From: Lepisosteus oculatus
Lineage: Eukaryota; Chordata; Actinopteri; Semionotiformes; Lepisosteidae
DNA length: 64,000 nt
Direction of reading: 5' to 3'
Assembly: GCF_040954835.1 (NCBI RefSeq)
Contig: NC_090711.1
Span: 17,538,734 to 17,602,733, forward strand
Part shown: in pieces, positions 36,825-63,357 of the stretch
Layout: each line of letters begins with the position of its first letter
Position numbering within the stretch: the first letter of the stretch is position 1
Translations under genes and position numbers: made by a program
The notes under the pieces: generated by a model
The model's input: only the letters and a program-made list of their open reading frames with translations
What the model was told of the DNA's origin: nothing
The model's database searches: none

Positions 36825-37065
36825 GAGGTTTAAGCCGGCAAGCCCGCAATTCCAAGATCTTAGTCCAGGGGGTCGGGAAGGCGACGGGAAGAGCTGGAAG
36901 GATCAGAAGGCGTGAAGGTCTGAGCGTGGAACGTGGAAGGGAGAAGATCGACGGCGGTGACGAGGAGGAGTGCAGAACGGTGCAGAGTTGGACGGCGGTG
37001 GTGGCAGTTACCTGGAGGCCGTGGAAGGAGTTGGGGCAGCGTGCTGTTGGCGTTCGGCTGGAGCG

Positions 37066-39560
37066 ATGGCGGGATTCCCTGGGCCGAGGAAGGAGCGGAG
37101 GAAGAACTCCCTTCGCTTCGTGTTGCGAGGACGGGAAGGCCTGGGAGCATGGAACAGAGGGAAGTTTAAGGATTTAATTTTGAAGCGTTTTTTGAATGTA
37201 CAGATGCCTGATTTAGTTTGTTTGCAAGATTTTTGTGAACGGGGGATTTTTGATTTGACTTTGATTTCTGAGTCTTTGGTTTGGGAACTTTGGGACTTGA
37301 TACAAGTACGAAGGGAGGAGGCGCCATTGAGCCTCTTTAAAGTAGAACCGTGGTTTGCGGGGAATTTGAAAGGCATGACTGTTTTTGTGTTGGATCCTTT
37401 CGTTTCAGAGGAGGACTTAGAGGGGTTTTTGGGGAAGTATGTGACATTGTATGGAAGAGGGAAGAAGGAACGGGATGAAGATGGCGTGTGGACTGGGAAG
37501 CGGCGGTATTGGATGAGTCTGCGTCAGTGTCCGGCGGCTGAGGAGGGGTGCTTCACCCCCCGGCGTTTTTCGAAATAGGCTCGGACGGGGCATACCTGTC
37601 TTATCCGGGCCAGCCCCGGGTGTGTTGGAAATGTTTTGAACTGGGACATTATGCGAAGCAATGTGGAACTATGAACTGTGGTCAGTGTGGATCACGAAGG
37701 CACGGGACAAAGGATTGTGTACGATGTTTTGTATGTGGGGAATGGGGTCATCTGCAGAGGGATTGTTTGAGGGGAAGGGGAAAAGTCTTTGTACAGGAAG
37801 TTGGTGTGAAGGAACAAAAGGGGGCAGAAGAGGTAGGGGGAGGTGTGACAGTTGGGGACGGGGAGGTGAGTGTGCATGATATGAGTGAGGTGTGCGTGGA
37901 GGTCAGGGAATTAGATAGGGAGGGAACGGGTGGGGGTGCCGAGGGAGGTAGTTGTGAGAGTGTGGTAAAGGGAATGGATAGGGTACAAGAGGAGATGTTG
38001 AAGGTAGAGGATAAAGTTACAGGGGAAGGTGTGGGGAGTTTGAGGGTAAACGGAATGCGACCAGCTGAAGAGTTTCAATTGAGTGAAGGGCCAAGCGTAG
38101 CTGAAACAATAAGTAGTGTTTCTAAAGAGGGTGGGAGTGGGAACATTGTGGGGTTAAAGCGTGAATCAGGGGAAGGGGCGAAGGATTGTGTGCATGTGGA
38201 GATGTTGAAAGGGGAGGTAATGGGAAGTTTGAATGTGGGAGAAGGTGTGGGGTGTACGGTGGAGAAGGTTAAAAAAGAAACTGGGAAAAACAAGGAGGGC
38301 GAGGGAGGTAAGAGTAAGTTGGCGGGAGAGGAGATGAAAGATGGTGTGCATGTGGAGACGCCGAAGGAAGAGGTAATGGAAAGTTTGAATGTGGGAGAAG
38401 GTGTGGGGTGTACGGAGGAGAAGGTTAAAAAAGAAACCGGGAAAAACAAGGAAGGTGTGGCATCAAGAGGTGGAGAGCGGATTAAGGATGGAATGAGCAA
38501 AGAACGAGTGGAGGGTGCCGAGGGAGGTAAGGGTAAATTGGCGGGGGAGAGAACGGGCTGTATGCAAGAGGAGATGTTGAAGGTAGAGGATAAGGGGAAG
38601 ATGAGCGTAGGTGAAGGGGAGGGGAATATGAGGGTAAAGGAAAAACGAATAGTAAAAGCAGGTGTTGTAGGTAAGGAGGAATTAGTGGAGGGGGTGAAGA
38701 ATGGTGTGCATGTGGAGACGTCGAAAGGAGAGGTAGTGGAAAGTTTGAAGGTAGGAGAAGTGGTGGGGAGTATAAAAGGGAAAGGTAAAAAAGAAATGGG
38801 GAAAAACAAGGAAGGTGCAATATCAGGAGGTGGAGAGGTGATTAAAGATCGAATGAGTAAAGAACGAGTGGAGAGGTGTCAGCAGAGACCTAAAGTGGAG
38901 GGTGTGAGAGAAGTAGCCTCAAAAGTAAGTGTGAAGGGAAGTAGTAGTGACATTAGAGATAAGGGAATGCTTACTTGGGAGTTTACGGATAGCGATGTTG
39001 AGAGAGAGCATGAGGAGGATGTTAAACAGTGTGAAAAGGAGTGGAAGAAGGAAGGGTATACTGAAGGGTTGGTGAGGATACCGTTAACGTGCATTTCGTG
39101 GGACGTAACACCTGGACCGAAGGTAAAAGAAATTGAGCTGAATGAGGAGAATTTTCCACCCTTGGGGTCTGCAGAGGCCATGAAGGGGAAAAAGAGTACG
39201 AAAAAGAAATCCGATTCAGGGGTGAGTGTTGAGAAAGGTGAATGTAAAAGTAAGTGTGTAAGTGGAGGAGGGGGTGCCCAGAGACAATGTCCAGAGATCA
39301 AGGACATTCAGTGTAAAGTGTGGGAGGAGACTAGTCTCCACCCTGAATGGCAGAGAGTGGTGATGGCTAAATGGAAGAAATGTTTGGCTACAATAAGTGA
39401 AGTGGAACGACGGTTTCCAGAGAGTCGTATTGAGCTAATAAAGGACGGGGATATTCCAGTGAAGTTTCGGATAGGTGGGAAGACAGCGAAGGAGTGCGGC
39501 CAGACAGCGAGAGAGCTGCATAAAGCATTAACTATAAGTTTAGATTTTGATCGGCGGTAA
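37066..39560 (+). CDS. LINE ORF1 (three CCHC knuckles, ZCCHC3-like), one frame slip
   Basis: The start is ATG 37066 (MAGFPGPRKERRKN), chosen because it aligns with the N-terminus of the second insert's ORF1. The N-terminal part (37066 to about 37545) contains LVCLQDFCERGIFDLTLIS and an RRM-like DPFVSEEDLEGFLGKY...WTGKRRYW pattern. The frame then changes within the G-rich run at about 37543-37548 and continues 37548-39560 (670 codons). CCHC knuckles lie at codons 26-39, 44-57 and 60-73 of that part, all CX2CX4HX4C. A long Lys/Glu/Gly-rich middle has three in-frame repeats starting near 38188, 38344 and 38704. A C-terminal domain ends in SRIELIKDGDIPVKFRIGG...LHKALTISLDF. The order PGQPRVC-knuckles resembles vertebrate ZCCHC3 proteins. 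It is probably a nucleic-acid-binding chaperone packaging the element RNA. The slip may be a genuine mutation or a homopolymer error. Confidence 0.8.
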
Positions 39561-39760
39561 TTTTTGTTATGATGGAAGCATTTAGGTGGTGAAGAGTATG
39601 GGATGATCTGAGAATAGAGAACAGTTCATTTGAATAAGGGGTGGGATTATGATAATGAATGGTTTTGTGAAGTTTGGGGTTTTTGTTGGGAAGTTTGGTT
39701 TCAAGGTTTTGGATTTTTGTTTAATGAATTGTGGTTTGATGTATTTTGTATTTTTGTAAT

Positions 39761-62966: not shown

Positions 62967-63329
62967 GAATTTGCATGAGGGGTGGTTTTATGGTAATGAG
63001 GAGTATTGATGTTTTGTGTATTATGCTTTTGGGATTGGATTATGTTTGTATTGTGTAATGACGTTTTTGGTTTGTTAAGTAAGGGAGCGGGTGGGTTTTG
63101 AAGGGTTTGTTTTTGTAGAAAATGATGACTTGCCATAAAGTGTAGTTATATAGGGTTTTGATGCCCTGTGTTGGTAAGTGTTGTGGTTAGGTAAGAGGGT
63201 TGTTGAAAGCTTTTGTTTGTATTGGTAATAAGTTAAATGAATATTATGATTATGTATGAACTGTAGATTTAGGTTGGAATTTGTGTGAATGTGAAGTTAA
63301 TGAAATATTTTATGAACTGTTTTTCTAAT

Positions 63330-63357
<28 letters not shown>
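62967..63357 (+). other. 3' UTR and poly(A) tail of insert 2
   Basis: T/G-rich sequence, poor in C, ends with TTTTTCTAATAAA and a 28-nt A run (63330-63357). No ORF2 was found in any frame. Confidence 0.85.

Follow-up and report, generated by a model that had tools for sequence, protein, structure and literature searches.

ORF1-only inserts of several families at a single site in the U2 snRNA genes of Lepisosteus oculatus

The U2 snRNA genes of Lepisosteus oculatus are interrupted at one site by inserts that carry an ORF1 and no ORF2. We propose that these inserts are old, HAL1-like, non-autonomous LINEs of many families, which supply their own ORF1 and borrow reverse transcriptase (RT), a reading to which we give a probability of roughly 80%. 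Several of its components can be read directly from the sequence: the inserts occupy the same site as RT-bearing elements and likewise end in poly(A), they lack ORF2, their ORF1 is conserved, they have a 3' motif and 5' ends in common with RT-bearing elements, and some copies are mosaics. From these features we infer that the RT would come from elements residing at the same site.

The U2 array and its inserts

The window, the whole stretch of DNA analysed, comprises 64,000 nucleotides of contig C16 (C16:17538734-17602733) from a 1.2-Gb assembly. It contains a head-to-tail array of U2 snRNA genes with a unit of ~1 kb, in which Rfam detects 46 U2 matches, both interrupted copies counted. Left of the array lie frames of 165-211 aa at 4453-5088, 5592-6089 and 7330-7872, none of which has a Pfam match above cut-off. 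The window's only N run, 200 nt at 18801-19000, lies within the array and outside both inserts.

Inserts 1 and 2 interrupt U2 at an identical 3' position (Table 1). At both 3' junctions, 28 A are followed by TCTGTTCTTATC; one A may come from the gene. Upstream of the inserts U2 is short of about 10 nt at insert 1 and about 16 nt at insert 2, and the last six bases of the U2 remnant preceding insert 1, AAGATC, can be assigned to either the gene or the insert. A relaxed-threshold Rfam search of both 5' UTRs found no known ribozyme family; everything it matched was either a remnant of U2 or scored far under the gathering score.

Both inserts encode the same type of ORF1. Insert 2 contains a first and a second RBD_ZCCHC3 domain and three CCHC stretches, and the only Pfam families matched in insert 1, insert 2 and the related copy L019 are RBD_ZCCHC3 and zf-CCHC, with no L1-type ORF1 among them. 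A first-pass annotation, made from the letters of the window, had given each insert a single ORF1 with three CCHC knuckles, a poly(A) and no ORF2. This description holds throughout for insert 2 and, apart from the single frame, for insert 1, whose protein is broken across frames 36970-37578 and 37548-39560. The frameshift, near 37545, is a one-base length difference from L019, which is 95% identical to insert 1 and has an open 942-aa ORF1 frame. The strong divergence that the annotation saw between the two inserts is also borne out, with 33% ORF1 identity in the RNA-binding domains and 45% in the knuckle region.

Table 1. Features of the two interrupted U2 genes and their inserts; positions count from the first base of the window.
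Feature	Position	Strand	Basis or score
Interrupted U2 gene of insert 1, 5' part, 28 nt	36797..36824	+	sequence read
Insert 1, ORF1-only element of L019's family, clade I	36825..39788	+	sequence
Insert 1, 5' UTR stretch complementary to U2 5' leader (predicted long hairpin)	36856..36884	+	
Insert 1 ORF1, N-terminal part: two ZCCHC3-type RNA-binding domains; ended by frameshift	37066..37578	+	
Insert 1 ORF1, rest, in another frame: CCHC knuckles, linker, C-terminal region	37548..39560	+	
Insert 1, 28-nt 3' UTR motif common to RT families A, B and D	39629..39656	+	28/28
Interrupted U2 gene of insert 1, 3' part	39789..39940	+	sequence, Rfam
Interrupted U2 gene of insert 2, 5' part, 22 nt	60904..60925	+	sequence read
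Insert 2, ORF1-only element, clade beta	60926..63357	+	
Insert 2 ORF1, 634 aa, intact: two RNA-binding domains, three CCHC, linker, C-terminal region	61062..62966	+	
Insert 2, 28-nt 3' UTR motif	62970..62997	+	25/28
Interrupted U2 gene of insert 2, 3' part	63358..63510	+	sequence, Rfam

Contig C296 carries a copy identical to insert 2 and flanked by U2, which may be insert 2's own place in another haplotype. This copy and the location of the N run elsewhere argue against an assembly join that removed ORF2, an explanation raised by the first-pass annotation, and we reject it.

We searched the genome for U2 junctions with a pattern of ten A followed by the U2 3' half, allowing at most one mismatch. 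The pattern matched 128 places and its backward control none, which, together with the exact site common to inserts 1 and 2, agrees with the U2 specificity claimed for them. One hundred of the 128 places were listed. At 30 junction loci the last 1.5 kb was inspected by eye; eight end in ORF1 and 22 in an RT-type ORF2 tail. The 14 complete inserts that were read comprise eight ORF1-only inserts of 2432-3194 bp, inserts 1 and 2 included, and six RT-bearing inserts of 5061-5832 bp, in which the ORF2 frame spans 1115-1149 aa.

Protein-level searches extended this census. Out of 1465 candidates, 150 ORF1 matches were scored, insert 1 not among them. A listed junction follows within 6.5 kb downstream of 73 of these matches, and the other 77 have none nearby. 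The 73 form two distance groups, one of 17 matches 1.1-2.9 kb from the junction and one of 56 at 3.6-5.8 kb; the nearer group consists of 16 ORF1-only inserts and one internally deleted element, L052. Counting insert 1, which was read directly, 17 of the 100 listed junctions are thus ORF1-only. An RT match, among the 86 scored of 5072 candidates, is present at 51 of the 100. At another 17 an ORF1 lies 4.3-6.4 kb upstream and none of those 86 scored RT matches is present, although two of these junctions carry RT by sequence. The remainder are L052, an RT element by origin, and 14 junctions with neither an ORF1 nor an RT match.

The 17 ORF1-only inserts are nine copies of alpha, insert 1, L019, insert 2, its C296 copy, L015, L022, L051 and L053. 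They fall into three ORF1 clades and at least seven families, so that the annotation was right to see more than one ORF1-only family and too low in counting two; the collection of junction inserts that it had suggested yields several families with like ends. ORF1 has a frame of at least 600 aa in 14 of the 17 copies and is damaged or short in three (insert 1, C16:18238970 and L051); the ORF1 of L022 lacks the C-terminal region.

At C16:17.9-18.35 Mb (L012-L050), the spacing of the junctions points to inserts in many U2 units in a row. Outside the main array, an alpha copy with a stop (L090, C1:38962300-38968300) adjoins a partial U2-like 5' end, and a second partial U2-like piece lies 1.3 kb beyond the first.

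Conservation of ORF1 and absence of ORF2

An ORF1 tree of 51 sequences and 222 columns, with L019 representing insert 1 and RT labels taken mostly from distance to the junction, resolves three ORF1-only clades. Clade I contains L019, L022, L015, L051 and L083, the last with its 3' part hidden by N (support 100/100). Clade beta contains insert 2, L053 and the Atractosteus spatula protein P0004 (95.2/96), and clade alpha is represented by L033, L035 and L037 (100/100). Homologues of the ORF1-only proteins are P0004 (71%) and a second A. spatula protein, P0006 (67% over 33%), while a further homologue, P0005, is 99% identical to the ORF1 of RT family A. All three are proteins without genomic context and so cannot be counted as ORF1-only.

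Substitution patterns indicate that selection has maintained ORF1, clearly so only in its N-terminal part. In the conserved region of clade I, four pairs give dN/dS of 0.16-0.26 at near-saturated dS (1.35-1.65), from which it follows that the ORF1-only state is old; whole alignments of the clade give 0.30-0.33. Alpha pairs reach 0.52-0.65 overall. Blocks within their first 300 codons give 0.07-0.20, except for one at 0.48 and one with a dS of zero, and later blocks give 0.43-1.65. The 665 codons compared in the second frame give 0.47 for insert 1 against L019, with blocks between 0.28 and 0.83.

The C-terminal regions of the ORF1-only clades resemble one another to different degrees. By hhalign, alpha matches beta at E 7e-8 (probability 94.5) and clade I at E 7.6e-5 (61.9), and the match of beta to clade I is weak (E 1.5e-3, 16.6). 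Comparisons with RT families A and B give E 0.03-0.29, with the A/B-like ORF1s L065/L068 E 0.01-0.24, and with the RT-bearing L059, L057/L058, L060 and L061/L062 E 0.14-0.78. The alignments to A/B keep a similar register, and the ORF1-only regions may therefore be distant homologues of the A/B region.

These patterns bear on whether an element needs the ORF1 that it encodes. Any ORF1 might coat the RNA, and the element's own might be kept for another purpose, such as interfering with autonomous elements. A separate role of this kind would suit C-terminal regions that lie closer to each other than to those of the tested RT-bearing ORF1s, a resemblance that is strong only between alpha and beta. 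The strongest selection, however, falls on the RNA-binding part, and for HAL1 the available text of PMC3627910 takes the long-kept ORF1 as a sign that ORF1p must be encoded in cis. We consider a dispensable ORF1 improbable.

A different challenge is that the ORF1-only inserts are full-length U2 LINEs that lost internal parts by chance and were then multiplied passively as the U2 array duplicated. Tandem gene arrays are homogenised by unequal exchange, insert 2 and its C296 copy are identical, and L052 (junction C16:18249044) is a real internal deletion. In L052, however, tblastn finds the 5' part of ORF2 at 5e-94, whereas the same search with six ORF2 proteins detected no remnant in insert 1, in insert 2 or in any of the ten ORF1-only inserts tested (best E 0.54). 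The number of families, seven or more, and purifying selection on the N-terminal part of ORF1 also stand against deletion. So does the tree, in which clades I, alpha and beta have no RT-labelled member, with the qualification that most labels reflect junction distance, that an N stretch interrupts L083 in clade I and that P0004 in beta is known as a protein without context. We reject internal deletion as the source of the ORF1-only inserts, in keeping with the original view that their form is unlikely to be one chance deletion; the alternative as a whole is largely refuted and very improbable. Some ORF1-only copies may still have spread through array duplication or gene conversion.

Shared ends, mosaic copies and candidate RT donors

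Full-length RT-bearing elements are common in the same U2 array. The six completely read RT families are 42-60% identical in ORF2. Family D, the only one scanned against Pfam, has Exo_endo_phos, RVT_1 and zf-RVT domains in ORF2, and its best named match is a Lepisosteus oculatus protein at 66%. Judged by their site and the APE-type domain of family D, the RT-bearing partners are likely Keno/Tx1-like members of the Tx1 clade.

A 28-nt motif in the 3' UTR links the ORF1-only inserts to some of these elements. This degenerate 28-mer, composed after the sequences were seen and preceded by a scan with a 23-mer and shuffles, is present at 24/28 or better in all eight ORF1-only loci and in 14 of 22 RT loci. 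The latter belong to just three families (A, nine loci; B, four; D, one). In the other eight RT loci the motif scores at most 20/28; a reversed-motif control reaches no more than 19. The motif is absent from RT families C, E and F and from L011 and L012, although all sit at the same U2 site. It is also absent from the ORF1-only family L053 (15/23 in the 23-mer scan), and in L035 the 23-mer scored 16/23, no better than shuffles, and the 28-mer 24/28.

The motif at 62970-62997, like the 3' UTRs of alpha and family A, places an octamer-like ATTTGCAT beside a GC-box-like stretch, a pairing that we take to be reminiscent of snRNA enhancers. A simple scan of the U2 unit found neither an octamer nor a GC box.

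The 5' ends point to more than one partner. In the first 60 nt, RT family D is the best match of clade I and alpha (0.83-0.95), insert 2 is closest to family B (0.83; family E 0.77), and L053 is closest to L052 (0.87). The search for partners with a common 3' UTR that the first-pass annotation advised has therefore turned up RT-bearing elements at the same site that carry the 3' motif and have matching 5' ends, an outcome in favour of its reading of the inserts as elements that would borrow RT.

The 5' UTRs of clade I and alpha are also complementary to the U2 leader upstream of them (z -2.9 to -3.9, with an equally low value in no more than 2 of 300 shuffles); for insert 1 the duplex has a z of -2.9, and 1 of 300 shuffles is as low. 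Long hairpins are predicted at 36797-36891 and at L104-L106. Complementarity is weaker in RT family D (z -2.2) and was not seen in insert 2 (z 0.0) or in A, B, C, E and L052 (0.2 to -0.7); L053 gives z -1.1, and family F gives z -2.1 elsewhere in the sequence. Such complementarity would make sense if the RNA started at the U2 start, and the hairpin suggests read-through transcription from the U2 promoter.

Parts have been exchanged among copies. Seven of the nine alpha copies were compared (L033, L035, L037 and L100-L103). They are 95-100% identical over the first 800 alignment columns, fall to 44-76% in many pairs beyond column 800, and return to 82-99% in the last stretch. L051 is clade I-like over its first 945 nt and 95% identical to alpha over its last 520 nt. 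Either template jumping or gene conversion could account for these mosaics.

How often ORF2 was lost is a separate matter. ORF2 may have been lost independently in each of the three ORF1-only clades, with their common C-terminal regions swapped by recombination, and we give this history an even chance. The best ORF1 trees set the three clades apart, mosaics occur among ORF1-only elements, and HAL1s arose several times in mammals according to the available text of PMC5753468; yet the deep branches are weakly supported, and the AU test does not reject a tree in which every ORF1-only sequence is forced into one group (p 0.41). We also entertain, more tentatively, a single loss of ORF2 in an ancient, self-sustaining lineage, which retained its own version of the ORF1 C-terminal region and radiated into many families in U2 arrays. 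Its members would be obligate parasites of a diverse guild of U2 LINEs and would keep pace with these hosts through template jumps that swap 5' and 3' parts.

The proposed HAL1-like borrowing of RT would proceed as follows. Transcription would start at the U2 promoter, so that the RNA begins with the U2 leader, and ORF1 would cover its own RNA in cis. The ORF2 protein of a co-resident A, B or D element, bearing APE endonuclease and RT, would cleave U2 and copy the ORF1-only RNA in trans from its poly(A). Jumps of the RT between templates, or gene conversion in the array, would produce the swapped parts.

Relation to known elements

Several ORF1-only families residing beside candidate RT donors would make the division between LINE functions kept in cis (ORF1) and borrowed (ORF2) testable in a small system. 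The RNA signals that decide mobilisation, for which the 3' motif and the U2-leader hairpin are candidates, are open to test in the same system, which would offer a natural host-parasite series inside a single gene array. No ORF1-only LINE in U2 was found in the literature searched, outside which most subscription papers lie.

Two known U2-specific LINEs have the same U2 3' flank as the junctions described here. Keno, of the Tx1 clade, is flanked by TCTGTTCTTATCAG... and has an apurinic-like endonuclease, as does RT family D when compared by description (available text of PMC4640811 and PMC6136364). As described, Keno encodes its own endonuclease, whereas the ORF1-only inserts encode none. Utopia has a restriction-like endonuclease (PMC4640811, as far as its available text describes it), where family D has Exo_endo_phos instead.

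Borrowing in trans has a parallel in SART1, a site-specific LINE with an AP-like endonuclease that copies RNA bearing its 3' UTR in trans. The donor in that case was engineered and lacked an ORF1 of its own, unlike the inserts here (PMC7265360, accessible portions).

The closest likeness is to HAL1, which is non-autonomous and consists of ORF1 only; in the guinea pig its coding capacity was long kept, and ORF2p is thought to be supplied in trans (PMC5753468 and PMC3627910, in the parts available). ORF1 without ORF2 is likewise what we found in all ten inserts tested and at 17 of the 100 listed junctions. In the portions of the literature available, L1-derived HAL1 is the only ORF1-only LINE; the inserts described here have a different type of ORF1, combining ZCCHC3-type RNA-binding domains with CCHC knuckles, and a single target gene. 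Unlike HAL1, they occupy one U2 site, several families share an array, and their 5' ends match those of different autonomous families. The ORF1-only elements are HAL1-like in their working, and they are not HAL1.
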